Below are positions 162 to 12,671 of a stretch of DNA of 12,671 nt, piece after piece. Below the pieces are notes generated by a model. That model searched no databases. It was not told the DNA's origin and saw only the letters and a list, made by a program, of their open reading frames with translations. The translations under genes were made by a program, and so were the position numbers. This stretch comes from Candidatus Desantisbacteria bacterium CG1_02_49_89 (GTDB taxonomy: Bacteria; Desantisbacteria; UBA1551), in assembly GCA_001871075.1 (NCBI GenBank), contig MNUP01000072.1:1-12671 (forward strand), in the 5' to 3' direction. Numbering within the stretch: position 1 is the stretch's first letter; each line of letters begins with the position of its first letter.

Positions 162-1367
162 ATGAAAAACGATCTCACTGAAAAAGGGATGCTGGTAACC
201 GTATTCTGGTTCCCGATTGTGAATGTGATCATGTACGCAGGTTTGATCTTTTCATTTTTCAGTTCTTTGACCAAACCGAAAGAATTTAAAAAGAAAACCG
301 GGCTGGATTACGCGATCCTATTTTTTTTCCTGATCGTGGCTCTTTCTGTTTTCACGTCTCAGGATAAATTGCTTAGTATTTACGGGCTGGCGGCATTCTG
401 CGCTTACCCGGCGGTTTATTTCCTTTTTTCAAAAAAAATAAACGCGGAAAATATCCCGGGGATCGCAAGAAATGTTTTCTATTCACTTTTGATTGTTTTG
501 GCGATGGCAGTAGTTCAGGTTGTTGCGCCCGGTCCGTTCCTGCTGAAGAATAAGGGGTTTTTCGATTTCCTGGGCCTGGGCTGGGAGAAGGGGCTGAATG
601 CGTGGCCGGGGACAAGGCTTGTGTCAACCCTGGGAAACCCGAATGTCCTGGGCGCTTACCTTATCCTTGTTCTTCCTGTTCTTGCCTGTTTTTTCCTGTA
701 TAAACCGTCTTATAAAACCGGCATTATTTTTATTGCCGGGGCTCTGTGTTTATTTTTTACTTATTCCAGGGCTGCCTGGATCGGTTTTTTTGCCGGTATC
801 CTGACCATAGCTGTAATATCCCGGAGACGGCTGATCGTTTTATTGTGCCTGCTGATGATGATACCTTTCGCCGCCATGCCGGGCCTGAGGAACCGGCTTG
901 TTTCGATTTTCAGGCCTTCTGCGCAATACGGCAATGTGGGCAGGTCTTACGCGTGGCAGGCAAGCATTAATATGATAAAGGCGCATCCTCTGCTGGGCAC
1001 CGGCATAAACACATACTACAGGGTGTATCCCGAATACCAGCCGCCTGGGTCAACCGACAGGTATCCGCATGCGCATAATGTTTTTTTGCAGATCGGAGCT
1101 GAAACAGGGCTGACAGGCTTGATGGCGTTCTGCGTTCTCGTTATACTCTTTTTAAAACTTTCGGTGCAGACCTACAGGAAATACGCGGTGCAGGGAAACG
1201 GGCAGGGGCTGCAATGGCTGGTACTCGGTATAATAGGCTCAACCGCGGGATTTCTTGTCCAGAATATCGGTGACTGCACTTTCGTGAGGGGGCAGATGGG
1301 CGTGATGTTCTGGGCGATGATGGGTATCGTGAAAGGATTTTCCGGAAGTATTGAGGAACAAAAATAA
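162..1367 (+). CDS. O-antigen ligase/polymerase (Wzy_C) family membrane protein, copy 1
   Basis: A 401-residue polytopic inner-membrane protein with about ten to twelve hydrophobic segments. It would either polymerise flipped oligosaccharide units (Wzy role) or transfer finished glycan to a lipid or protein acceptor (WaaL role). Visible family marks are STLGNPNVLGAY (155-166), YSRAAW (201-206), and the large periplasmic-loop signature from HPLLGTGINTYY (275-286) to YPHAHNVFLQIGAETGLTGL (301-320), including His305-Asn306 and several Arg. Length is normal for the family. In-frame stop TAA at 141-143 bars a longer protein; AAAGG at 148-152 lies nine bases before the ATG. A start at Met10 (base 189) is possible. 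It opens the cluster, 11 bases before the Wzz-like gene. Sequence alone cannot separate ligase from polymerase. Confidence 0.87.
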   Translation: MKNDLTEKGMLVTVFWFPIVNVIMYAGLIFSFFSSLTKPKEFKKKTGLDYAILFFFLIVALSVFTSQDKLLSIYGLAAFCAYPAVYFLFSKKINAENIPGIARNVFYSLLIVLAMAVVQVVAPGPFLLKNKGFFDFLGLGWEKGLNAWPGTRLVSTLGNPNVLGAYLILVLPVLACFFLYKPSYKTGIIFIAGALCLFFTYSRAAWIGFFAGILTIAVISRRRLIVLLCLLMMIPFAAMPGLRNRLVSIFRPSAQYGNVGRSYAWQASINMIKAHPLLGTGINTYYRVYPEYQPPGSTDRYPHAHNVFLQIGAETGLTGLMAFCVLVILFLKLSVQTYRKYAVQGNGQGLQWLVLGIIGSTAGFLVQNIGDCTFVRGQMGVMFWAMMGIVKGFSGSIEEQK

Positions 1368-1378
1368 GGAGAGCAGTA

Positions 1379-2080
1379 ATGGAAGAAAAAGAAAAGGGCC
1401 TGGTGGAATATCTGGGTGTGATAAAGAAACGAAAATGGATCCTGGTGATCGCGCTGCTTATTGGTTTTGCGGTTTCGCTGATCAGCGTTATCGCCACGAA
1501 GCCGGTATATCGCGTTGAATCCGCTTTTGAGGTCGGTTTCATCCAGTCCGGATATATCGTGGAGTGTACGAACATGGCGCAGATATGCAGGACCGCGAAT
1601 TTCAGGAACAAGATCAGGGAAACGCTTTCCCTGCCCGCGGGAGAAGACGTGCCGCTGAACGCAAAGTCAAGCGGTCCGGTTATTTACCTTATTAGCAATA
1701 CGCAATTCCCGGAAAGATCGGTAAAAATATTGAATACGGCGATGGATATTATAGTCAGAGAGCATGATGCAATGTATAAAGAGGCGATGAAGCCGTTCCT
1801 GAGCGAGATCGACAGCTACCGCAGGCAGATAGAAACGCTTCGGTCAGGGCAGGACGAAGTTTCGCGCATGTATCTGCTGAACCTTAGGATGCAGCTAAGC
1901 CAGCTCGAAAAGATACTGGCGCCCTACAGGACTACCAGGGTCCTGTCTCCGGCAGCGGTTTCGGAAAAACCGGTAAGACCGCGTCCTTTTACCGATATTG
2001 CCATTGGTTTACTGCTAGGCCTGCTTGCTGGATTATTCGCTGTTTTTTCAAGGGAATACCTGTTCCCGGAGAAGTCCTAA
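1379..2080 (+). CDS. Wzz-like polysaccharide chain-length determinant (no kinase domain)
   Basis: A 233-residue inner-membrane protein of Wzz architecture. It has a short cytoplasmic N-terminus containing VEYLGVIKKRKW (9-20), a transmembrane helix at about 20-40, a periplasmic region with a helical stretch at about 142-180, then a proline-rich entry (EKPVRPRP, about 196-203) and a second helix at about 206-224. Wzz proteins oligomerise and set modal chain length with Wzy. At 233 residues it is on the short side compared with classical Wzz (about 320-340), because the periplasmic region is short. No Walker motifs or tyrosine cluster follow, so it is not a BY-kinase fusion. The Shine-Dalgarno AAGGAGAG (1366-1373) overlaps the previous gene's stop codon, which implies coupling. 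Confidence 0.85.
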   Translation: MEEKEKGLVEYLGVIKKRKWILVIALLIGFAVSLISVIATKPVYRVESAFEVGFIQSGYIVECTNMAQICRTANFRNKIRETLSLPAGEDVPLNAKSSGPVIYLISNTQFPERSVKILNTAMDIIVREHDAMYKEAMKPFLSEIDSYRRQIETLRSGQDEVSRMYLLNLRMQLSQLEKILAPYRTTRVLSPAAVSEKPVRPRPFTDIAIGLLLGLLAGLFAVFSREYLFPEKS

Positions 2081-2085
2081 AAACC

Positions 2086-3585
2086 ATGAAATTAAAATCC
2101 AGTTCCCTGATCAGGGATATATCGCAGACTTTTGTAGTGGAATTGATCGTTCTGGCAGGTTTTGTTGTTATATACAGGATCATTGCGGTAAATTTCGGGT
2201 CCGAAGGGGTAGGGGAGTATTCTCTTATCAAGAGGGTGATCGCTCTTCTCCAGCCGCTTTTGATCCTGGGTTTTACCATAGGGATCCCGAGGTATATCGC
2301 CTTGTGCGGGAGCAAAGAAGAAGCGGTTCCTTACGCACAGGCGGGTTTTGCGTCAGCCCTCATTTTTGTTATTTTATTACTGCTGTTGTTAAATGCCTTC
2401 GGCGGTTTTTTTTCGAAGATATTTTTCGGCAGCACCTCTTACGCACACCTTGTTTTTCCATTTTCTGTGCTGATGTTCGGGCTTTCGCTGCATGTGCTTG
2501 TTTATTCGTATTTCCGCGGAAACATGCATGTCAGGTCGTTTAACTCGCTCCAGACGATCAATCTTGCAGTTGCTCCGGTAGCGATCCTCGCATTCTCCGG
2601 GAACGTGACACTTGCCCGCCTTGTTATGCTGATGGGGATAAGCACGGCAGTTATTTCCGTGATATTCATGATTCCTTTCGCGGGGCGGCTTTTTATGCCG
2701 CCGGGGAAAAAAGTGCTGGGCAGATCCCTCAGGGAATTACTTATTTACAGCCTGCCGCGGGTGCCGGGAGAATTTGCAATGGCAGGGCTTTTTTCTTTAA
2801 GCCCGGTTCTTGCGGTCCATTTCGCTTCTATGCGGGATGCGGGATACCTTGCGGTAAGCCAGAGCCTGGTAACCGGAATATGCGGGATGGCAGCGCCGCT
2901 TGGCATAATCCTTCTGCCAAAGGTGAGCAGCCTGGCAGGGCAGGGCAAGCAGGAAAGGATAAGCGAAGGCATAGGCCTGGTCAACGGTGCTGTTTTTCAA
3001 TTTTCCATCTTCCTGTTCTTCCAGCTCATAATATTCACAGATGCCATTATAATGCACTGGCTGGGCCCCGGATTCGCGGGCGCAACCTGCGTTTTTCAGA
3101 TAGCGCTGATATCCGTATTCTTTTACATGTATTACATATCGATGCGCAGTATCCTGGACGCGGTGCTTGTAAAACCCGTCAATACGTTCAATATTTTCCT
3201 GTCGCTGGGCCTGCTCCTGGGTTTGACGGCGGTATTGCTGATCTTTTGCCGTAGGTCAATTCCGGCTATTATAAGCATAAGCATAGCGTTCGCCGCGGGC
3301 CTTGTGCTCCTGGGTATACTTACTTATGCGTCTGTCAGGAAGCTGTATCCCGATAACCATCGGAAAGACATGGGATATATATCCGCCGCTTTGATCATTA
3401 ACCTGCCAATAGCCTTTATTGCCTTTGTTCTAAAGAAGGTTGTCAGCCCAAAACTCATATACCTTTTGTTTTTTGAGATGGCGGCCTGTGTTGCTTATTT
3501 TAGCTTGCTGTGGTTATTCAAAACCGAATGGATAAGGAGGGTATTCGGCAACATGACTGAAAAAACCGGAGCTGAACAGGTATGA
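2086..3585 (+). CDS. wzx: Wzx-type lipid-linked oligosaccharide flippase (MOP superfamily)
   Basis: A 499-residue, almost wholly hydrophobic protein with about 12-14 predicted membrane helices, the usual size for Polysacc_synt/MurJ-like flippases. It should move undecaprenyl-diphosphate-linked repeat units from the cytoplasmic to the periplasmic face. Family-like stretches are FGSEGVGEYSLIKRV (37-51) after helix 1, YSYFRGN (140-146), YSLPRVPGEFA (221-231, the repeat of the fold) and RDAGYLAVSQSL (250-261), a counterpart of the usual 'G.Y..A..L' element. It sits five bases after the Wzz-like stop; GGAGAAG (2069-2075) inside the previous gene is the likely ribosome site. It overlaps the next gene by four bases (ATGA). 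A T8 run near 2406 lies in frame and is intact. Confidence 0.92.
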   Translation: MKLKSSSLIRDISQTFVVELIVLAGFVVIYRIIAVNFGSEGVGEYSLIKRVIALLQPLLILGFTIGIPRYIALCGSKEEAVPYAQAGFASALIFVILLLLLLNAFGGFFSKIFFGSTSYAHLVFPFSVLMFGLSLHVLVYSYFRGNMHVRSFNSLQTINLAVAPVAILAFSGNVTLARLVMLMGISTAVISVIFMIPFAGRLFMPPGKKVLGRSLRELLIYSLPRVPGEFAMAGLFSLSPVLAVHFASMRDAGYLAVSQSLVTGICGMAAPLGIILLPKVSSLAGQGKQERISEGIGLVNGAVFQFSIFLFFQLIIFTDAIIMHWLGPGFAGATCVFQIALISVFFYMYYISMRSILDAVLVKPVNTFNIFLSLGLLLGLTAVLLIFCRRSIPAIISISIAFAAGLVLLGILTYASVRKLYPDNHRKDMGYISAALIINLPIAFIAFVLKKVVSPKLIYLLFFEMAACVAYFSLLWLFKTEWIRRVFGNMTEKTGAEQV

Positions 3586-4712
3586 TCGCAAAAATCTTTC
3601 TTTCTCTTCTGCCTTTAGCGATCCTGGGCATAACACCACGATCGTGGACAGCATCCGTGATCGGAACTGCCGGATACTGCCTTGCGGCATTCGTTTCATC
3701 GGTTTCCGGCCAAAACGGCAAAAGATCCGAAGGCCTTTCCTGGGTTTATGTTTCCGCGATCGGTATTTTTCTACTGGCAGAGATGCTTTTTAATCCTTCA
3801 ATGAACGGCTACGGCACGGAAAAAGGATTCTACTTCCTGCTTATAGTGCTTCCTTTCAGCTTGGCTGCAAGCAGGCTTGTAAGGGCTCCCGAGGATTTCC
3901 GCTTTGTAATGCTTGGTTTCCTGCCGCTTGGCTTGGTCCTCGCGCTGATGACGGTTGTCCTGAACCGTCCTATTCTTGGAATATCCCGGTATTCCTGGAC
4001 AGGTAATTTATGTGCCATAAGCGCGGTCATCCTGCTGCAGTTCAAGATCATAAAGAACAAGATGATTGCCTTTTTGCTTTTTTTACTTTCCTCGGCAGGA
4101 GTCGCGGTCTCCGCGTCAAAACAGGCGGCCGTCATGCTTGTTGCCGGATTTGCCGCCACGCTTCTATTCAATTGCTTTGATCTTAAAAGAAGAAAAAAAG
4201 ATATTCTTATCCTGTCCGCGATCGTCCTGGTACTGGTTTTCTTCTGGAACCAGTTTACCGGCCTGCCGGTGATGCATCACCTGATGGGCAGGATCCAGCA
4301 CAGTATGCGGTTTGACGACCGCGTCCTGATGCTTCCTGCTGCCTGGAACGGGTTCCTGGCATCTCCCTTTGCGGGTATAGGGATAGGTAATTACGCAGAA
4401 ATATATACGGATTTTTCATACTTTTACCCCCATAATATATTCTTGGAGATCCTGTGCGAATTCGGAGCGGCTGGAATGATCATATTTTTCCTGCCGATAA
4501 TTTTGCTCTGCGTTTTCCTGATTTCAAAATGGTCAAAGACCGGGAATGATTATTACAGGTACCTTTTTCTTTTTTTTCTTTGTTTTCTTGTGGTAGCAAA
4601 CTTCGGCGGAGATTTTCAGAGCAATAGGGGAGTATGGGTTTTTGGCATAATGATGTTCGGTTTCCTGTCTTTTCCTAAATACGCAGGTAATAATACACAA
4701 GATGGAAGATAA
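3582..4712 (+). CDS. O-antigen polymerase/ligase (Wzy_C) family membrane protein, copy 2
   Basis: A 376-residue polytopic membrane protein with about ten or more hydrophobic segments. The diagnostic periplasmic-loop region runs from SPFAGIGIGNYAEIY (261-275) to YPHNIFLEILCEFGAAGM (282-299) with His284-Asn285. The C-terminal GGDFQSNRGVWVFG (342-355) resembles GDCTFVRGQMGVMFW in the first Wzy_C-family protein of this cluster, supporting a shared fold. The start overlaps the flippase stop by four bases, a classic translational-coupling arrangement, and the gene overlaps the GT2 gene by eleven bases. Being embedded between flippase and glycosyltransferase makes it the better candidate for the Wzy polymerase of this locus, leaving the first copy as possible ligase. 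That assignment is inferred. Confidence 0.86.
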   Translation: MIAKIFLSLLPLAILGITPRSWTASVIGTAGYCLAAFVSSVSGQNGKRSEGLSWVYVSAIGIFLLAEMLFNPSMNGYGTEKGFYFLLIVLPFSLAASRLVRAPEDFRFVMLGFLPLGLVLALMTVVLNRPILGISRYSWTGNLCAISAVILLQFKIIKNKMIAFLLFLLSSAGVAVSASKQAAVMLVAGFAATLLFNCFDLKRRKKDILILSAIVLVLVFFWNQFTGLPVMHHLMGRIQHSMRFDDRVLMLPAAWNGFLASPFAGIGIGNYAEIYTDFSYFYPHNIFLEILCEFGAAGMIIFFLPIILLCVFLISKWSKTGNDYYRYLFLFFLCFLVVANFGGDFQSNRGVWVFGIMMFGFLSFPKYAGNNTQDGR

Positions 4713-5715
4713 AAAGCCGTTCGTTTCGGTGATCATTCCCTGCAGGAATGAAAAAGAATTCATAAGAGATTGCCTGGAATCCATTATTGCCCAGGACTAT
4801 CCAAAGGATAATCTTGAGTTTTTGGTTGTTGATGGCATGAGCGAAGACGGGACACGTGACATAATCAGGCAGTTTTCATGCCGGCATCCTTTTATCAAAC
4901 TCATAGACAATCCGAGAAGAATTACCCCCTGTGCATTTAATACAGGTATTAAAAATGCAAGCGGTGAAGTAATTATAAGAATGGACGCGCACGCTGTTTA
5001 TAAAGAGGATTATATTTCAAAGTGCGTAAAATACTTATTTGAATACAGAGCGGACAACGTCGGCGGTGTGCTTGTAACCAGGCAGAGAGAAGACAGCTTT
5101 ATCGGTAGGGCAATAGCACGGGCTTTGTCAAATAGTTTTGGGGTTGGCAACTCCATTTTCAGGACGGGCGCGGAAAAACCTGTATGGGTTGATACGGTTT
5201 TCGGAGGTTGTTACAAAAAGGAAATTTTTGATAAAGTCGGACTTTTTAACGAAGACCTGATTTTCAGCCAGGATATAGACTTTAATCAAAGGTTGAAAAG
5301 AGCAGGGGGCAGAATATTGCTTCATCCTGATATAAAAAGTTATTATTATGCAAGATCCAGATTTATGGATTTCTGCAGGTATAATTTTAAAAACGGAGTA
5401 TGGATCACGTATCCATTAAAATTTGTAAAAACATTTCCTTTCTCATTAAGGCATATTATCCCGCTTATTTTTGCATCAAGCCTTATTATTCTGGCTGCAC
5501 TGTCGCCTTTTTTTGTATTTTTTTTCTGGTTGTTTATATGTATATCAGGATTTTATTTTGTCATAAATATTTTTTTCTCAGCGAAAATAGCCATGAATGA
5601 ATCTGATTTTCGATATTTATTTATTATGCCCGTAGTATTTTTTTCACTTCATTTCCTATACGGATTAGGTTCTATCTGGGGAATAATAAAATTGCCGGGG
5701 AGACAGCGTGGTTGA
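4702..5715 (+). CDS. GT2 family glycosyltransferase, ExoA-like, with C-terminal membrane segments
   Basis: A 337-residue GT-A-fold glycosyltransferase that would add a sugar from a nucleotide donor to the growing lipid-linked unit at the cytoplasmic membrane face. Seen: FVSVIIPCRNE (7-17), nucleotide-site LVVDGMSEDGT (41-51), metal site MDAHAVY (94-100, a D-x-H form of DxD), VFGGCYKK (166-173), and acceptor/catalytic SQDIDFNQRLKRAGGRI (189-205). Hydrophobic segments at about 250-295 and 303-327 anchor the C-terminus. The overall pattern resembles succinoglycan ExoA-type enzymes. The donor and acceptor sugars cannot be told. The gene is clearly richer in A+T than those before it, with some 60-base rows near 20-33% GC, suggesting a separate origin. 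Its last eight bases overlap the methyltransferase gene. Confidence 0.9.
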   Translation: MEDKKPFVSVIIPCRNEKEFIRDCLESIIAQDYPKDNLEFLVVDGMSEDGTRDIIRQFSCRHPFIKLIDNPRRITPCAFNTGIKNASGEVIIRMDAHAVYKEDYISKCVKYLFEYRADNVGGVLVTRQREDSFIGRAIARALSNSFGVGNSIFRTGAEKPVWVDTVFGGCYKKEIFDKVGLFNEDLIFSQDIDFNQRLKRAGGRILLHPDIKSYYYARSRFMDFCRYNFKNGVWITYPLKFVKTFPFSLRHIIPLIFASSLIILAALSPFFVFFFWLFICISGFYFVINIFFSAKIAMNESDFRYLFIMPVVFFSLHFLYGLGSIWGIIKLPGRQRG

Positions 5716-6490
5716 TCCAAGAAAGCAAGATGAGGCCGAGTTTCACGACAAACTTAGAAATGAATCGCTCAAGTATGAAGATGGCAAATACAGATATCTG
5801 ACATCAAATAGAAAATATTATTCGGTTGTCCGCAGATCCAGGGATTTTACCCGTGAGTGGCTTAAAAAGAGATGCCGCGGCAGAAAAGGTCTTGATTACT
5901 GCTGCGGGAACGGCGAAAATAATATTTTTATGGCAAAGAACGGCGCGGAGAGCATGGGTATTGACATTTCAGGTATTTCGGTTGAAAACTGCAAGAAGCA
6001 TGCTTTTGAAGAGGGAGTGGGCGATAAAGCCTCTTTTCTGGTGATGGACGCGGAAAACATGAAGTTTGAAAACGATAGTTTCGATGTCGTTATCTGCAGC
6101 GGAGTGCTTCATCATCTTGATATAGAAAAAGCTTTCAGGGAACTGTCCAGAGTTCTAAAACCCGAAGGGGAAATCATCTGCATCGAGCCGCTTGTATACA
6201 ACCCGCTGTTTCAGTTATACAGGAGAATAACTCCGCAGTTGAGAACCAAATGGGAGACGGAGCACATTCTCACGCTGAATGACCTGGAAAAAGCAAAGAA
6301 ATACTTCGGGAAAATAAACACAAGTTTCTACCACCTTTTTACGCTTCTTGCAGTGCCTTTCAGGAACAGCAGATTTTTTGACCCGATCCTTAGACTGCTG
6401 GAAGCAGCGGATTCAGTGGCAATGAAGCTGCCGCTCGTGCAGCTGATGGCGTGGCAGATGGTTTTCATACTTTCAAAACCTTTAAAATGA
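5708..6490 (+). CDS. Class I SAM-dependent methyltransferase
   Basis: A 260-residue Rossmann-fold methyltransferase. Motif I is GLDYCCGNGENN (61-72), with CCGNGE in place of the usual GCGTG; the acidic SAM-ribose residue lies in GIDIS (84-88); motif II/III regions are MDAENMKF (113-120) and FDVVICSGVLHHL (125-137); then RVLKPEGEIICIEP (148-161). This is the Methyltransf_11 pattern. The 'QDEAEFHD' N-terminus (7-14) is typical of methyltransferases found among glycan genes. The start is GTG at 5708, preceded by GGGGAG (5697-5702) at five-base spacing and overlapping the GT2 gene by eight bases. It probably O- or N-methylates a sugar of the repeat unit, or the chain end. A lipid or quinone substrate cannot be excluded. 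Confidence 0.88.
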   Translation: MVDPRKQDEAEFHDKLRNESLKYEDGKYRYLTSNRKYYSVVRRSRDFTREWLKKRCRGRKGLDYCCGNGENNIFMAKNGAESMGIDISGISVENCKKHAFEEGVGDKASFLVMDAENMKFENDSFDVVICSGVLHHLDIEKAFRELSRVLKPEGEIICIEPLVYNPLFQLYRRITPQLRTKWETEHILTLNDLEKAKKYFGKINTSFYHLFTLLAVPFRNSRFFDPILRLLEAADSVAMKLPLVQLMAWQMVFILSKPLK

Positions 6491-6666: not shown

Positions 6667-7263
6667 ATGTTAAAGCGACTGTTTGATATAATTGTTTCTG
6701 CTGCGGGAATCCTGTTGCTTTCACCTTTCTTTGTGATTACCGCAGCAATAATAAAACTGGATTCAAAAGGGCCTGTTTTTTACAGGGGTGTGAGGGTAGG
6801 CAGGAAAGGTAAATTGTTTAAAATTTACAAGTTCAGGACTATGGTAGCAGATGCCGATAGGATCGGAGGTTCTTCGACGCCTGAAGATGATCCGAGGGTC
6901 ACGAGGATCGGAGGAATGCTCAGGAAATTCAAGCTGGACGAACTGCCCCAGCTTCTTAACGTGCTTGAGGGCGATATGAGCTTTGTGGGACCCAGGCCGG
7001 AGGTTTCATTTTATGTCAACATGTTCAAAGAAGAGGAAAAAGTAATCCTTAATGTAAAACCAGGTATTACTGATTGGGCTTCATTGTGGAATTCAAATGA
7101 AGGTGCGGTTCTTGCCGGAAGTTCTGATCCAGAAAAAATTTATATGGAAAAAATAAGACCAGAAAAAATAAAGTTGCAGTTAAAATACATTAAGGAACAA
7201 TCATTCAGTGTAGATCTGAAAATAATATTTTTAACGCTAAGAAAAATCGTATTTAGAATATAA
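6667..7263 (+). CDS. Small monotopic sugar-phosphate transferase initiating lipid-linked glycan synthesis (PglC-like)
   Basis: A 198-residue bacterial sugar transferase of the minimal monoPGT type. It lacks the N-terminal CoA-binding/transmembrane half found in WbaP/WcaJ. It would move a sugar-1-phosphate from a UDP-sugar to undecaprenyl phosphate, the first committed step. Seen: KRLFDIIVS (3-11) leading into the re-entrant hydrophobic helix (to about 30), GPVFYRGVRVGRKGKLFKIY (35-54) and KFRTM (55-59), the catalytic Asp-Glu pair in KLDELPQL (89-96; D91, E92), GDMSFVGPRPE (102-112) and KPGITDWASLW (131-141). Size matches PglC (about 200). The ribosome site is weak (AGG at 6659-6661). It follows a repeat element, so it may be transcribed apart from the upstream genes. 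Its A+T-rich 3' end resembles the GT2 gene. Confidence 0.93.
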   Translation: MLKRLFDIIVSAAGILLLSPFFVITAAIIKLDSKGPVFYRGVRVGRKGKLFKIYKFRTMVADADRIGGSSTPEDDPRVTRIGGMLRKFKLDELPQLLNVLEGDMSFVGPRPEVSFYVNMFKEEEKVILNVKPGITDWASLWNSNEGAVLAGSSDPEKIYMEKIRPEKIKLQLKYIKEQSFSVDLKIIFLTLRKIVFRI

Positions 7264-7327: not shown

Positions 7328-8308
7328 ATGAAATATTCCAGGACATTGCTAAAAAACTTTTATAAGACAATGCTACGGATTAGGTTGTGCGAGGAAAGAT
7401 TTGTCCACCCCATAATAAACGGCGAAATAAAATGTCCTGTGCATTTATATTCCGGCCAGGAAGCAGTTGCTGCCGGCGTATGCGCAGCTCTGCGCGCGAC
7501 AGATTACGTTTTCGGCAACCACCGTTCCCACGGCCATTTTCTGGCAAAAGGCGGTAGCTTGAAAAAACTTGTCGCTGAGGTTTATTGCAGGGAAACCGGT
7601 TGTTCCCGGGGCAGGGGAGGATCCATGCACCTTATAGATGTTAACAAAGGCATGCTTGGATCAACGCCGATAGTGGCAGGCACCATATCTCTTGCACTTG
7701 GCGCATCACTTGCTTCAAAAATAAGGAAAGATAGGCGCGTAACTGTCAGTTTTTTTGGCGACGGTGCTGCGGGCGAGGGTGTTATGTATGAATCCTTGAA
7801 CTTCGCGGCACTTAATAAATTACCTATTATTTTTGTCTGCGAAAACAATCTGTATTCAACGCATATGTCTTTAAGAGAATGTAGAACGAAAAATAATATT
7901 TACAGGATAGGCGGGTATTTTGGCGTTCGGAGTTACCGTTCTGATGGTAATGATGTGCTTAAGGTTTATGAAAGAGTCAATAGGGCTGTGAAGTTATGCA
8001 GGTCGGGAAATGGACCGGTATTTATCGAATTCATGACTTACAGAATGCGCGGGCACGTCGGGCCGAACGACAACATCCATGGATTGCATACAGACATAAG
8101 GCCAAAAAAAGAGATTGCGGAATGGCGAAAAAAAGACCCAATCAGGAAATTCAGCAAATACCTTGCGGAAGAAGGTGTTTTAAGCGAAAAAGACCTGGAA
8201 TCAATAAAAGAAAAAGTGAATAAAGAAATTGCTGGGGCGTTCTTGTTTGCGAAGAGAAGCCCTTTTCCAAAAAAGGAAGAGTTGGGCAGATATGTCTTCA
8301 GGGAATAG
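7328..8308 (+). CDS. Thiamine-diphosphate-dependent E1-alpha-like subunit
   Basis: A 326-residue homologue of the alpha subunit of 2-oxoacid dehydrogenase E1 (PdhA/AcoA/BkdA1 family). Seen: YSGQEAVAAG (41-50), NHRSHGHFLAKGG (64-76), GRGGSMHL (95-102), and the ThDP/Mg motif beginning FFGDGAAGEGVMYESLNFAA (142-161) and ending in FVCENN (169-174), with GDG at 144-146 and NN at 173-174. The late loop reads TYRMRGHVGPND (237-248), where dehydrogenases usually have a 'TYR..GHS..D' loop. Length is slightly short but complete. The ribosome site GGGAG (7321-7325) is only two bases from the ATG. The beta gene overlaps its end by 17 bases, so the two subunits are coupled. No lipoyl E2 or E3 is in the window, arguing for a carboligase or decarboxylase role within sugar synthesis. 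The substrate is unknown. Confidence 0.9.
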   Translation: MKYSRTLLKNFYKTMLRIRLCEERFVHPIINGEIKCPVHLYSGQEAVAAGVCAALRATDYVFGNHRSHGHFLAKGGSLKKLVAEVYCRETGCSRGRGGSMHLIDVNKGMLGSTPIVAGTISLALGASLASKIRKDRRVTVSFFGDGAAGEGVMYESLNFAALNKLPIIFVCENNLYSTHMSLRECRTKNNIYRIGGYFGVRSYRSDGNDVLKVYERVNRAVKLCRSGNGPVFIEFMTYRMRGHVGPNDNIHGLHTDIRPKKEIAEWRKKDPIRKFSKYLAEEGVLSEKDLESIKEKVNKEIAGAFLFAKRSPFPKKEELGRYVFRE

Positions 8309-9287
8309 AATTCTGCAATACAGCTTGGCTATCAATGAAGCCCTGCACCAGATAATGGCTGCGGATAAATCCGTATTCCTTATAGGGCAAGGGGTTAAGA
8401 GCCCTTGGTATGTGGGAAACACTACCGGGGGTCTGTTAAAAAAATACGGCGCAAGCCGTATTATTGATACTCCTGTTTCGGAAAATGCAGTTACGGGAAC
8501 GGCTGTGGGGGCTGCTATTGCCGGCATGAGGTCGGTCGTCGTCCATCCGAGGATTGATTTCATGGTATACGCCTTTGACCCGGTCATTAACGAGGCGGCG
8601 AATTACCATTACATGTTCGGTGGCAGAGTCTGCGTACCGGTTGTTATCTGGGGCATAGTGAACAGGGGCGGAGAGCAGGCAGCCCAGCACTCCCAGTCAC
8701 TTCACGCTCTCTTTGCACATATTCCGGGTTTAAAAGTTGTCATGCCTTCAACGCCTTATGACGCAAAAGGGCTGATGATCGCAGCCATTAAAGACAATAA
8801 TCCAGTTTTATTCATAGATGACCGCTGGCTGTACGGCATTAAGGGAAATGTGCCGCGCGACATGTATACAGTCCCAATAGGCAGGGCGGTCATACGTAAA
8901 AAAGGCAGAGACGTAACCCTGATTTCAGTTTCATACATGGCCGAGGTGTCAAGACAGGCGGCCCTGATGCTGGTAAAACAGGGCATCAGCGTTGAACTTA
9001 TCGACCTCAGAACAGTTAAGCCTCTTGATAAAGAGATGGTCCTCAGGTCGCTGAAAAAAACAGGTAGGTTGATAATCGCTGACGGAGGATGGAAGACCTG
9101 CGGAATGGCGGCTGAAATATCGGCGTCTATTTCTGAAGAAGGATTCAGGTACCTTAAAGTTCCGATAAAAAGGATAACGCTTCCTGATATTCCGGCCCCC
9201 GCAAGTTCAGTTTTGGAAAAGGCATATTATCCGTCAATCGGGGATATAGTAAGCGCCGCAAAGAAAATGATGCAAAAATCGGCGTAA
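8292..9287 (+). CDS. Thiamine-diphosphate-dependent E1-beta-like (transketolase-like) subunit
   Basis: A 331-residue homologue of E1-beta (PdhB/AcoB/BkdA2 family), partner of the alpha subunit for an alpha2-beta2 enzyme. Seen: DTPVSENAVTGTAVGAAIAG (59-78), where E64 is the expected cofactor-activating glutamate; EAANYHYMFGGR (101-112); RGGEQAAQHSQSLHALFAH (125-143) and PGLKVVMPSTPYDAKGL (145-161); then the C-terminal transketolase domain with VELIDLRTVKPLD (234-246). ATG 8292 is chosen over an in-frame TTG at 8229: family proteins begin close to the 'ALNEAL'-type segment, here YSLAINEALHQ, and GGAAGA (8275-8280) lies upstream. Unusual are VHPRIDFMVYAFDP (84-97), where dehydrogenases carry a hydrophobic 'E(F/I)..F' stretch, and GIVNRGGEQ (121-129). 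Confidence 0.9.
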   Translation: MSSGNRILQYSLAINEALHQIMAADKSVFLIGQGVKSPWYVGNTTGGLLKKYGASRIIDTPVSENAVTGTAVGAAIAGMRSVVVHPRIDFMVYAFDPVINEAANYHYMFGGRVCVPVVIWGIVNRGGEQAAQHSQSLHALFAHIPGLKVVMPSTPYDAKGLMIAAIKDNNPVLFIDDRWLYGIKGNVPRDMYTVPIGRAVIRKKGRDVTLISVSYMAEVSRQAALMLVKQGISVELIDLRTVKPLDKEMVLRSLKKTGRLIIADGGWKTCGMAAEISASISEEGFRYLKVPIKRITLPDIPAPASSVLEKAYYPSIGDIVSAAKKMMQKSA

Positions 9288-9291
9288 TCTT

Positions 9292-9310
9292 AGTCTGCAA
9301 TCTATGCAAT
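9292..9310. repeat. Right copy of short direct repeat bracketing the E1 gene pair
   Basis: AGTCTGCA (9292-9299), ATC, then TATGCAAT (9303-9310), immediately after the E1-beta stop (TAA 9285-9287). It matches the copy at 7263-7284 except for one substitution and a three-base deletion. It also supplies part of the leader of the next gene, whose ribosome site AGGAG starts at 9312. Confidence 0.7.
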
Positions 9311-9321
9311 CAGGAGTTCTA

Positions 9322-10431
9322 ATGTCATATAAAGTTCGTTTTGTAGATCCGGCTAGGAATTACAAGATGATCAAAAAAGAGATTGACGCAGCTTATCATG
9401 AAGTGATGTCGCGCGGGGACCTTATTATGCGCGGACAGCTGAAGCACTTCGAAGAAAAGCTTGCGGGGTTCGTCGGCACAAAATACGCGGTCGGGCTCAA
9501 TAGCGGATATGACGCACTTCATATTTCCATGATGGCCGCGGGGATAAAGTCCGGCGACGAAGTGATAGTTCCCGCGCATACGTTTCTCGCTACTGCATCC
9601 GCGGTTGTAAACGCGGGTGGCAGACTGGTTCTTGCGGACGTGTCAGAGGATTATAATGTTGATCCCGGAAAGATCGAAAAGGCGATTACTTCGAGGTCAA
9701 AGGCTATAATACCCGTGCACTTGAACGGCAGGGCATGCGACATGGATGCGGTAATGTCTATTGCAATAAAACACAGGCTTGTTGTCATTGAGGATGCCTG
9801 CCAGTCGCTCGGAGCTACCTTCCGCGGCAAAAAAACCGGCTCCTTCGGTTTAACGGGCTGCTGGAGTTTTTATCCTTTCAAGATACTCGGTGGCTACGGA
9901 GACGGAGGCGCAATAACGACTAATGACGCAAAAGTTGAAAGATACGCAAAATTGCTGCGTTATAACGGAGAAAAAAAAGAAACCGGCGCCTATTACTACC
10001 ACGGTTTTACATGCCTGCTTGATAATATCCAGGCGGCTTTTCTTGCCGTAAAACTGCGTCATCTTCCTGAATGGCTGAGAAGGCGCAGGAAGATCGCGGA
10101 TATTTACAGAAAGGGATTGAGCGGCATAGAGGGTCTGAAGCTGCCGCATTTTGAGGACAAGAGATTCGGGGATGTTTTCCAGAATTATGTCGTTAGGACG
10201 AGTAGAAGGGATGAGCTGTATAATCACCTGAAAAAAAACGGGGTAGAAATACTCATACACTGGAGGATCCCTTATTATAAATATAAAGGTCTTAAACTTA
10301 AGACCGGAAGATTTTCCGAGACTGAATCTATTTCGCGCGAGGTCCTTTCGCTGCCCATGAACGTTGAAATAACCGATGCCCAGGTCAAATATGTGATAAA
10401 GACCATATGCAATTTTTTTCAATTTATGTAA
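9322..10431 (+). CDS. DegT/DnrJ/EryC1/StrS family nucleotide-sugar aminotransferase
   Basis: A 369-residue PLP enzyme that would transfer an amino group, usually from glutamate, to a keto-sugar nucleotide. Seen: FVDPARNY (7-14), LNSGYDALHISMMAAGIKSG (59-78), DEVIVPAHTFLATASAV (79-95), PVHLNGRACDM (131-141), VIEDACQSLGA (155-165, D158 binds the PLP nitrogen) and WSFYPFKILGGYGDGGAITT (181-200) with the PLP lysine K187. The 'FYP.K..G..GDGGA' context resembles C3-aminotransferases (QdtB/WlbC types) more than C4 enzymes such as PglE. ATG 9322 is preferred over 9304 because AGGAG (9312-9316) sits five bases before it. It is followed 13 bases later by a second, unrelated aminotransferase. Full length and intact. 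Regiochemistry is inferred from one motif. Confidence 0.92.
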   Translation: MSYKVRFVDPARNYKMIKKEIDAAYHEVMSRGDLIMRGQLKHFEEKLAGFVGTKYAVGLNSGYDALHISMMAAGIKSGDEVIVPAHTFLATASAVVNAGGRLVLADVSEDYNVDPGKIEKAITSRSKAIIPVHLNGRACDMDAVMSIAIKHRLVVIEDACQSLGATFRGKKTGSFGLTGCWSFYPFKILGGYGDGGAITTNDAKVERYAKLLRYNGEKKETGAYYYHGFTCLLDNIQAAFLAVKLRHLPEWLRRRRKIADIYRKGLSGIEGLKLPHFEDKRFGDVFQNYVVRTSRRDELYNHLKKNGVEILIHWRIPYYKYKGLKLKTGRFSETESISREVLSLPMNVEITDAQVKYVIKTICNFFQFM

Positions 10432-10444
10432 TCAGGAAGTAAAA

Positions 10445-11617
10445 ATGAAGCCGTTATCTCGCATAACTGAAAAATTCACCGAATCGGTGATTAGGGAAAT
10501 GACACGCATCTGCGATGCCGTCGGAGGGTATAACCTTTCTCAGGGTTTCCCTGATTTTGAATCTCCCGCGAAGGTCAAGAATGCGGCAATAAAAGCGATC
10601 CTCGGCGGTTATAACCAGTATCCGGTTACTTTCGGGGAACCTAAATTAAGGAAGGCGATTGTGAAGAAGGCCTGGAGCTTCAACAGGATTAGGTGCAACC
10701 CGGAAACAGATATAACAGTTACCTGCGGAGCTACCGAAGCCATGATAGCAACATTAAAAGCGGTTATAAACCCGGGTGAAGAAATAGTCATTTTCGAACC
10801 TTTTTATGAGAACTACGGTCCTGACGGCATCCTTTCAGGGGCAAAACCGCGGTATGTTTCACTATACCCGCCGGATTGGAAATATTATTCAAAAGAACTT
10901 TCGGCCGCTTTTAACAGGAAGACCAAGGCGGTTATCATAAACACCCCGAATAACCCGACAGGCAAGGTGTTTACCAGGCAGGAACTGGAGGAAATAGCAT
11001 CCTTGTGCGCCAGGTGGGACTGTCTAGCTGTCACAGACGAGATCTACGAGCATATAACCTACGACGAAGAAAAACATATTTCAATGGCTTCATTAAATGG
11101 TATGGCACATAGGACCGTCACGATCAACTCCATTTCCAAGACCTATTCTGTTACAGGTTGGCGCGTCGGCTGGGCTATAGCGGACAGCAGGATCACCAGC
11201 AGAATAAGGAAGGTACATGATTTCCTGACCGTGGGAGCGCCGACTCCTTTCCAGGAAGCGGCGGCTTTCGCTTTGGGAATGCCGGCGGCATATTACCGCA
11301 GACTGCGTTCCAGATATGAAAAGTCGAGGGAGTTTTTATTCAACCTTCTTGTTGAGACCGGGTTCCGGCCTTTCATGCCCAAAGGGGCTTATTATATAAT
11401 GGCGGGAATAGGCGACCTTATGAAGAAACTGGACATTAGAGACGATTTTTCATTCAGTAAAAAACTTATCGAGATGACTGGTGTTGCGACTGTCCCGGGG
11501 ACATCTTTTTATTCGTCTTTAGGGAAGGGCAGGGACCAGATAAGGTTCTGTTTCTGCAAGAAACAGCAGACTCTTGATAATGTAAAAAAGGGACTGATGC
11601 GCCTGAAAAACGCTTAG
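10445..11617 (+). CDS. Class I/II PLP aminotransferase (aspartate/kynurenine aminotransferase-like)
   Basis: A 390-residue fold-type I aminotransferase interconverting an amino acid and a 2-oxo acid. Seen: YNLSQGFPDFESP (29-41), TCGATEAM (93-100), INTPNNPTGKVFT (165-177, N170), VTDEIYEH (196-203, D198 and Y201), SISKTYSVTGWRVGW (229-243) with the PLP lysine K232, and QIRFCF (365-370) with the carboxylate-binding R367. The 'SQGFPDF' opening is reminiscent of kynurenine/glutamine-K and methionine aminotransferases (KAT/YbdL subgroup), so the substrate may be an aromatic or sulfur amino acid, but this is tentative. AGGAAG (10434-10439) is five bases from the ATG. Sitting between sugar genes, it may feed a 2-oxo acid to the adjacent E1-like enzyme or supply amino groups; this is not demonstrable here. 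Confidence 0.9.
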   Translation: MKPLSRITEKFTESVIREMTRICDAVGGYNLSQGFPDFESPAKVKNAAIKAILGGYNQYPVTFGEPKLRKAIVKKAWSFNRIRCNPETDITVTCGATEAMIATLKAVINPGEEIVIFEPFYENYGPDGILSGAKPRYVSLYPPDWKYYSKELSAAFNRKTKAVIINTPNNPTGKVFTRQELEEIASLCARWDCLAVTDEIYEHITYDEEKHISMASLNGMAHRTVTINSISKTYSVTGWRVGWAIADSRITSRIRKVHDFLTVGAPTPFQEAAAFALGMPAAYYRRLRSRYEKSREFLFNLLVETGFRPFMPKGAYYIMAGIGDLMKKLDIRDDFSFSKKLIEMTGVATVPGTSFYSSLGKGRDQIRFCFCKKQQTLDNVKKGLMRLKNA

Positions 11618-11629
11618 AACGGGGAGAAA

Positions 11630-12671
11630 ATGAAAGCTAAGAATATATCGCTTGTTCTTATTGATTTTGTTCTTCTGAGTCTGGCGATACTCCTGGCTTT
11701 CAGGATACGTTTCCCTGATTTTGCCGCACTCCCCAATTTTCTCGCGTTTAAGAAATATTTTGTGTTCTTCATACTTATTAAGATCTGCTCGTATTACCTG
11801 TTCGGGCTTTACGGAGGGATATGGAGGTACGCGGGCCTCAGCGAAGCTTTCAGCGTATTATACGCCGTTACGGCCGGGACCCTGGCATCTATCAGTTTTA
11901 TCTTTTTCACCCAGGTTCCCTTTGTCTTCAAAATGCCGCTCGTGCCCCGTTCGGTAATACTCATAGACTGGTTTTTCAACCTTCTTTTTATAGGGAGCGT
12001 CCGTTTTGTGCCAAGGATCCGCAAGGATCTATGGCTCAAGCCTGCCTCAGTTGCAAAGAGGCTTCTGATAGTCGGCGCGGGAGATACCGGCGAGCTTGTG
12101 ATCAGAGAGATAGCAAGGCATCCGGAGCTTGGTTACAAGCCCGTGGGTTTCATTGATGATGATCCGGAAAAAAGAGGCAGAAGGATACACAACCTGAAGG
12201 TCCTGGGGACAAGGGAAGATATCCCCCTGATCATTGAAAGGGAAAATATAGTTGAAATAATAATCGCGATACCTGCCGCTTCTGGAAGGATAATACGGGA
12301 AATAGTAAATTACTGCCAGAAGGTAAAAGTAGAACTGAAGATAGTTCCCGAGATCCCCAAGATCCTGCAGGGCGGTGTTTCTTTCGCGGACCTGCGAAGC
12401 GTGAAGCCCGAGGACCTGCTCGGGAGGGAAATGGTTGAGATCAACAGCGAGGACGCAAGGATTTTCCTGCAGAACAAGGTGATACTTGTCACGGGAGCGG
12501 GTGGTTCTATAGGTTCAGAGATATGCAGGCAGGTTTCGGGTTTCGGTCCCGCCCGCCTGATAATGCTTGACCATAATGAGAACGATGTTTATTTTATCGA
12601 AATTGACCTAAAAAGGAATTATCCCGTCCTGCAGTTCAGGACGGTTATAGGAGATATAAAGGACCCGATGC
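11630..12671 (+). CDS. CapD/FlaA1/WbpM-family nucleotide-sugar dehydratase/epimerase, 3' end outside window
   Basis: Open from ATG 11630 (ribosome site GGGGAG, 11621-11626) to the window edge: 347 codons of a protein usually about 600-650 residues. The N-terminal part is membrane-bound with about four hydrophobic helices (roughly 6-26, 43-60, 76-97, 106-124). Next comes a first Rossmann unit, LLIVGAGDTGELVIREI (145-161) and VGFIDDDPEKRG (172-183). A linker with LLGREMVEIN (263-272) leads into the catalytic SDR domain, VILVTGAGGSIGSEICRQ (284-301) and LIMLDHNEND (310-319). The catalytic triad lies beyond the edge. Relatives (WbpM, PglF, FlaA1) are UDP-GlcNAc 4,6-dehydratases making 4-keto-6-deoxy sugars for amino sugars such as bacillosamine or QuiNAc. 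It follows the aminotransferase by 12 bases. Confidence 0.93.
   Translation, partial: MKAKNISLVLIDFVLLSLAILLAFRIRFPDFAALPNFLAFKKYFVFFILIKICSYYLFGLYGGIWRYAGLSEAFSVLYAVTAGTLASISFIFFTQVPFVFKMPLVPRSVILIDWFFNLLFIGSVRFVPRIRKDLWLKPASVAKRLLIVGAGDTGELVIREIARHPELGYKPVGFIDDDPEKRGRRIHNLKVLGTREDIPLIIERENIVEIIIAIPAASGRIIREIVNYCQKVKVELKIVPEIPKILQGGVSFADLRSVKPEDLLGREMVEINSEDARIFLQNKVILVTGAGGSIGSEICRQVSGFGPARLIMLDHNENDVYFIEIDLKRNYPVLQFRTVIGDIKDPM

Follow-up and report, generated by a model that had tools for sequence, protein, structure and literature searches.

Candidate E2-independent, sugar-branching E1-type enzyme pairs in bacterial surface-glycan gene clusters

A pair of genes for E1-alpha- and E1-beta-like subunits of a thiamine diphosphate (ThDP) enzyme lies in a glycan cluster of Candidatus Desantisbacteria bacterium CG1_02_49_89, and probably encodes an E2-independent carboligase of the aKADH2/E1 superfamily that branches the first sugar of a surface glycan. 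An intact catalytic pair, independence from E2, a fixed gene cassette and two exchangeable slots within this cassette are all seen in the sequences. In the pathway that we propose, a PglF-type dehydratase would supply an NDP-4-keto-6-deoxy (amino)sugar, and the E1 pair would take a C2 acyl unit from a 2-oxo acid by decarboxylation, pyruvate being the likeliest donor, and place it onto the sugar ketone, so that a tertiary alcohol bearing an acetyl branch arises. A DegT-type aminotransferase would then aminate the branch ketone, which in sister loci would be reduced by an aldo/keto reductase (AKR), and a small phosphoglycosyl transferase (PGT) would start the glycan by loading the branched sugar, as its first one, onto undecaprenyl phosphate. 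We infer the donor, the acceptor, the position and stereochemistry of the branch, the product and the order of the steps. A sequence-only reading of this DNA had already suggested that an E2-less E1 pair branches a sugar of the surface glycan. This suggestion is supported in part, by the absences of E2, the E1-alpha tree, and the exchange of DegT with AKR and of E1 with transketolase. Our proposal goes beyond it in two points: DegT probably acts on the newly made branch ketone, and the branched sugar is probably the one first loaded by the PGT.

The window, i.e. the whole stretch of DNA that was analysed (12,671 nucleotides), makes up the whole of contig C145, one of 150 in a genome of 2.48 Mb, so that the flanks of the E1 pair cannot be read beyond it. 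According to a Pfam domain search, it is filled by a Wzx/Wzy-type glycan cluster (Table 1). Two differing Wzy_C genes, of polymerase or ligase type, are present in this one cluster. As first read, the E1 pair sits between the PGT upstream and two aminotransferases downstream, of the DegT type and of class I. The closest solved chain to the PGT is of the diNAc-bacillosamine-1-phosphate transferase PglC type (8g1n, E 2e-29), and those closest to the DegT are 7b0d, QdtB (3frk) and WbpE. For the latter gene, a start at ATG 9322, which follows CAGGAG, is favoured over one at 9304. The truncated dehydratase matches the N-terminal part of TIGR03025 and of the PglF/WlaL chains 5bju-5bjy, and most of the relatives that are complete have a full-length homologue of it beside them.

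Table 1. Coordinates of the genes in the window and of the split transketolases that take the place of the E1 pair at other loci.
Feature	Locus	Coordinates	Strand	Basis or state
Wzy_C protein, first copy	window	162-1367	+	Pfam
Wzz-like protein	window	1379-2080	+	Pfam
Flippase-like protein	window	2086-3585	+	membrane character only; no Pfam match
Wzy_C protein, second copy	window	3582-4712	+	Pfam
GT2	window	4702-5715	+	Pfam
Methyltransferase	window	5708-6490	+	Pfam
Small phosphoglycosyl transferase (PGT)	window	6667..7263	+	Bac_transf PF02397, E 1.5e-61
E1-alpha-like ThDP subunit, 326 aa	window	7328..8308	+	PF00676, E 4.6e-68
E1-beta-like ThDP subunit, 331 aa	window	8292..9287	+	PF02779 + PF02780
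DegT/DnrJ/EryC1-type aminotransferase, motif SFYPFKILGGYGDGG	window	9322..10431	+	PF01041, E 6e-99
Class I aminotransferase (kynurenine/glutamine-transaminase K type)	window	10445..11617	+	profile and structure-chain matches
PglF/WbpM-type membrane 4,6-dehydratase, truncated by contig end	window	11630..12671	+	TIGR03025, PglF/WlaL chains
Split transketolase	L220	967-2731		intact
Split transketolase	L221	7860-9709		intact
Split transketolase	L222	6952-8737		intact
Split transketolase	L223	7724-9456		intact
Split transketolase	L225	10294-12088		intact
Split transketolase	L226	6890-8637		intact
Split transketolase	L227	7526-9348		intact
Split transketolase	L224	2-896		partial, frame-broken, at contig end

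Both E1 subunits are intact, with full-length Pfam matches. The ATG of E1-beta at 8292 overlaps the stop of E1-alpha, the two genes sharing 17 bases; a TTG at 8229, given by the ORF finder, is unlikely to be the start. The ThDP motif of E1-alpha is formed by G144-D145-G146 and N173-N174. Residue numbering was carried over from the E1 of G. stearothermophilus, which is justified by equal spacings: D173-N202-H271 of its alpha subunit correspond to D145-N174-H243, and E59-H128 of its beta subunit to E64-H133. The ThDP motif, the activating glutamate E64-beta, H133-beta (the equivalent of the catalytic H128-beta) and H243-alpha (the equivalent of H271-alpha) are invariant among the 34 aligned core sequences defined below. 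The Pfam matches and the alignment thus agree with the sequence-only reading, which had described two intact subunits at 7328-9287 with a GDG...NN motif and the activating glutamate. The closest solved chains for the pair are those of human PDH E1 (E 1.5e-53 and 1.5e-70). E1-alpha scores below the cut-offs of the NCBIfam PDH E1-alpha equivalog models (321.2 of 393.85 bits and 204.6 of 411.35 bits), and E1-beta lies above the cut-off of a broad NCBIfam PDH E1-beta subfamily model.

No E2 or E3 gene occurs within the window, which comprises contig C145 only. The same statement in the sequence-only reading therefore holds, but it is weak evidence when taken alone, because the genome does have an E2 elsewhere: its sole copy lies on contig C100, in an operon with an E1 pair of its own. 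A third E1 pair of this genome (L096, 3476-5680 on contig C147) also has no adjacent E2; it lies in the midst of sugar genes, next to genes that resemble those for an aldolase and an alpha-mannosidase and to one for a PfkB-like kinase.

It is the comparative data that make the argument from the lack of E2 a strong one. We found 34 relatives of the E1-alpha, at 50-67% identity, in Omnitrophota, deltaproteobacteria, Bacteroidota, Elusimicrobia, a Turneriella, a Victivallaceae and candidate phyla. The core set comprises 35 loci, the phylum of the window offering just two genomes for sampling close relatives. Searches of Bacteroidota (395 genomes) and of the phylum of genome G022 (five genomes) yielded no further core members, and a search of plasmids gave relatives at no more than 44% identity. 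None of the 35 core loci has an E2 within 6 kb of the E1 genes, and no E2 domain was found anywhere in 14 of the 22 genomes checked, including assemblies of 3.2, 3.9 and 5.7 Mb. The relatives are mostly metagenome-assembled genomes, so that each single absence is weak evidence; their sum is not.

The E1-alpha tree points in the same direction. Of its 99 rows, 70 fall into a single group (SH-aLRT 100), every core member among them, and none of the loci in this group has an E2 next to the E1 genes, whereas all 25 E2-linked rows fall outside it; the tree comes from a quick search and carries SH-aLRT support only, without bootstrap. The reference operons include a Bacillus relative and an Acetobacterium. 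E1-beta entered trees only in concatenation with E1-alpha, within the core. The window E1-alpha belongs to the core clade of this orphan, i.e. E2-less, group, apart from PDH-, acetoin- and BCKDH-type operons. Both checks put forward by the sequence-only reading, a search for neighbouring E2 genes and a tree against the known dehydrogenase types, consequently speak for an orphan pair, the second with respect to E1-alpha.

Residues around the region that engages the lipoyl domain of E2 are altered as well. In E1-alpha, I206 organises loops that engage this domain and is key to their conformation (PMC2663715). Its equivalent in the window is T178, and each of the 34 aligned core sequences has Thr or Ser at this position. 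An insertion specific to the core lies in the outer loop of E1-alpha (equivalent to about 247-265). In E1-beta, R87 is present in 58 of 58 orphan sequences versus none of 21 E2-linked ones, and QGVKSPWYVG stands in place of the usual GED-V...GG-F stretch. As judged from sequence, these changes in loops and pocket suggest that lipoyl docking has been lost and that the pocket may accommodate a polar acceptor.

The gene order of the core loci is fixed: PGT, E1-alpha, E1-beta, DegT, often a class I aminotransferase, and dehydratase, with the PGT at most 4 kb from the E1 genes in 34 of 35 loci. Among these 35 loci, the E1 pair neighbours a DegT in 28, an AKR in five (L016, L024, L027, L151 and L155; PF00248 checked in three), both in none and neither in two (L035 and L036). 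As the loci share ancestry and were gathered by a search, Fisher tests of this exclusivity are given no weight. The sequence of L036 ends 1.3 kb downstream. L035 carries, at 4827-6438, a PGT and an E1-alpha, followed by an S-layer-like protein gene, with no E1-beta in its 12.7 kb contig, and is possibly a remnant. At two of the AKR loci, L151 and L155, the gene immediately after E1-beta, in the usual place of DegT, is the dehydratase, and the AKR lies upstream of E1-alpha, which makes the change between DegT and AKR two-sided. The AKR label requires four changes on the concatenated E1 tree, and the AU test rejects a single clade of AKR loci (p 5.7e-7). A DegT locus and an AKR locus (L023 and L024) are 90% identical in E1-alpha and 94% in E1-beta, but only 42% in the PGT. 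Conversely, the PGT tree unites the five AKR loci in one clade (support 94) and three loci with an upstream DegT in another (99). The PGT therefore tracks the enzyme that finishes the ketone rather than the E1. The simplest explanation would be a ketone shared by all loci, made by E1 and then either aminated or reduced, with a PGT that recognises the sugar in its finished form; part of the co-inheritance of PGT and AKR could reflect physical linkage, the two being neighbours.

All DegTs carry the GDGG-type motif of QdtB and WbpE, which we take to mark enzymes acting on 3-keto sugars as opposed to the PglE/ArnB type. Together with the exchange pattern, this motif favours the branch over the ring as the site where DegT acts, although a ring ketone could be its substrate instead. 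A class I aminotransferase stands directly beside the pair only where the DegT belongs to the subgroup with motif SFYPFKILGGYGDGG, in the window and in 13 other core loci; it may supply the donor or perform a second amination.

The slot of the E1 pair is itself exchangeable. With the window DegT as query, samples of two phyla yielded DegT loci without any E1 pair, and in eight loci (seven intact and one partial) a split transketolase lies between PGT and DegT, in the place of the E1 genes. These enzymes consist of Transketolase_N (PF00456) and the pyr/C halves, where the window alpha subunit has PF00676 instead. Where the contig allows, genes of the same kinds as in the E1 loci follow downstream: a class I aminotransferase or a methyltransferase, and a dehydratase. 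No locus combines an E1 pair and a transketolase in its cassette; L036 does have a transketolase, but at a distance of 6-7 kb. The label switches between E1 and transketolase at least five times on well-supported branches of the DegT tree. That ThDP enzymes of two superfamilies, with C2 transfer in common, are interchangeable upstream of the same DegT argues more strongly than anything else for a C2 transfer which leaves a ketone. Split transketolases accepting ketones are given only from Streptomyces in a cited review, where they are proposed, as yet unproven, to put hydroxyacetyl on keto sugars (PMC12247030).

Could the pair nevertheless be an ordinary 2-oxo acid dehydrogenase E1 that shares E2 and E3 from elsewhere in the genome, its place in a glycan cluster being accidental? 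The E2 on contig C100, the PDH E1 Pfam domains and the identical catalytic residues would fit, but we regard this as highly improbable: that E2 already has its own E1 pair, more than half of the genomes checked for the clade are devoid of any E2 (the 14 mentioned above), the same cassette is kept in many phyla, and the pair stands outside the E2-linked E1s with altered lipoyl-engaging residues. An identity as PDH or acetoin dehydrogenase E1 was accordingly rejected on the E2 absences, the separate tree group and the changed residues.

Small aldehydes are normal acceptors of E1-type enzymes and of transketolases, both of which occur in the slot, and small oxo acids could be products or substrates of the class I aminotransferase. 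The ThDP enzyme might thus join C2 to a small aldehyde rather than to an NDP-4-keto sugar, giving an acyloin or deoxyketose which, once aminated by DegT, becomes or joins a sugar. We consider this unlikely, as no nucleotidyltransferase or kinase recurs in the cassette, whereas the 4,6-dehydratase and the PGT do, and as the PGT follows the processing enzyme, which fits a modification of the NDP-sugar itself. A 4,6-dehydratase with an aminotransferase is also the usual bacillosamine-type route, and this gene set, with PglC as the closest solved PGT, is what would be expected if the 4-keto group of the sugar were the substrate of DegT or AKR (QuiNAc4N versus QuiNAc/FucNAc), with the E1 pair making a separate acyl or carbonyl substituent at another place. 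However, the GDGG-type motif of all DegTs is not that of PglE/ArnB, the AKR loci offer no amine for acylation, and no acyltransferase recurs in the cassette, which makes this scheme quite unlikely.

If C2 branching of the first sugar by the E1 pair is accepted, the cassette as a whole may be modular and shared horizontally across phyla: either an E1 pair (acetyl) or a split transketolase (hydroxyacetyl) and either a DegT (amine) or an AKR (alcohol) would be freely exchanged, with the PGT matched to the finished C2-branched first sugar. We hold this wider picture with about as much belief as doubt.

E2-less aKADH2 pairs branch sugars, or have been proposed to do so, in the avilamycin, paulomycin, aldgamycin, kosinostatin and kibdelomycin pathways, and KbDH-alpha/beta of kibdelomycin couples pyruvate in vitro with ketones including sugar analogues (PMC12247030). 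Compared by description, these antibiotic pairs (AviB1/AviB2, Pau11/Pau12, EvdU5/EvdS3, those of aldgamycin and kosinostatin, and KbDH) share with the window pair the lack of E2 and a keto-sugar-forming enzyme in a deoxysugar context (PMC12247030, PMC4753412, PMC4425429, PMC10338323). Depending on the pathway, their branch ketone is reduced, as by the AKR Pau7 on the C4-acetyl branch of paulomycin (PMC4753412), whose cluster was confirmed by mutation of pau11 (PMC4425429), or transaminated, as in kibdelomycin (PMC12247030). By analogy, the cassette would parallel this logic step by step in a surface glycan, with DegT or AKR presumably acting on the branch. Unlike the antibiotic pairs, the core pairs lie in Wzx/Wzy-type clusters of Gram-negative and candidate-phylum bacteria and are tied to an initiating PGT.

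In the cited review, branching in lipopolysaccharides is ascribed to YerE-like enzymes, while aKADH2 enzymes appear mainly in connection with antimicrobial natural products (PMC12247030). YerE-like enzymes (yersiniose, erwiniose; decarboxylase superfamily) furnish keto sugars of surface polysaccharides with a branch of two or more carbons. They are, in contrast to the window pair, single-chain flavoproteins of the acetolactate synthase type with an unrelated domain set, and a YerE-type identity is ruled out for the window subunits, which are E1_dh, Transket_pyr and Transketolase_C proteins. The split transketolases of miharamycin and amipurimycin are two-gene ThDP enzymes also proposed to transfer hydroxyacetyl to a keto sugar (PMC12247030); they belong to another superfamily than the window pair, and it is enzymes of this kind that hold the E1 slot in L220-L227. 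With the E1 of PDH, BCKDH and acetoin dehydrogenase, the window pair has its domains, ThDP motif and catalytic Glu and His in common, but it differs in the missing E2 partner, the altered lipoyl-engaging loops and its separate tree group.

A literature search, outside which most subscription papers lay, turned up no previous mention of this cassette, or of E1 pairs or split transketolases within gene clusters for surface polysaccharides. If our reading is correct, branching by E1-type enzymes, so far known mainly from antibiotic production, would be widespread in the surface glycan synthesis of anaerobic and candidate-phylum bacteria, and a new class of sugars would await discovery in such glycans. 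The exchangeable slots would provide natural pairs of enzymes, such as those of L023 and L024, for studying the substrate choice of these enzymes and of the PGT, and an annotation as 'PDH E1' in such genomes would be no proof of a pyruvate dehydrogenase.

Orphan E1 pairs are also found outside the core clade. Distant pairs with a DegT directly after them occur at L061 (1-3000, a Coxiella-like endosymbiont), L047, L054, L056, L059, L060, L090 and L228, so that the link between E1 and DegT recurs beyond the core. On plasmid pDMC1 of Solidesulfovibrio magneticus (L189, 8995-13204), an E1 pair is followed by an annotated GDP-L-fucose synthase and a DegT within a glycan cluster, and this strain is a possible test organism for the more distant orphan pairs. 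A second orphan group (L164, 5010-14507, and L160, 1987-7789, both on the minus strand) lies by a kinase/cytidylyltransferase fusion, a SIS isomerase and two epimerases, i.e. neighbours that resemble a heptose-like NDP-sugar route, L164 having a split transketolase as well; a similar order is seen at L041, L044, L048, L049, L052 and L053. Finally, judging from sequence starts only, the orphan pair of L162 (1412-6489, minus strand) lies near nucleotidyltransferase-like and CDP-glucose-dehydratase-like genes, a 599-aa acetolactate-synthase-like ThDP enzyme and a NeuB-like enzyme.
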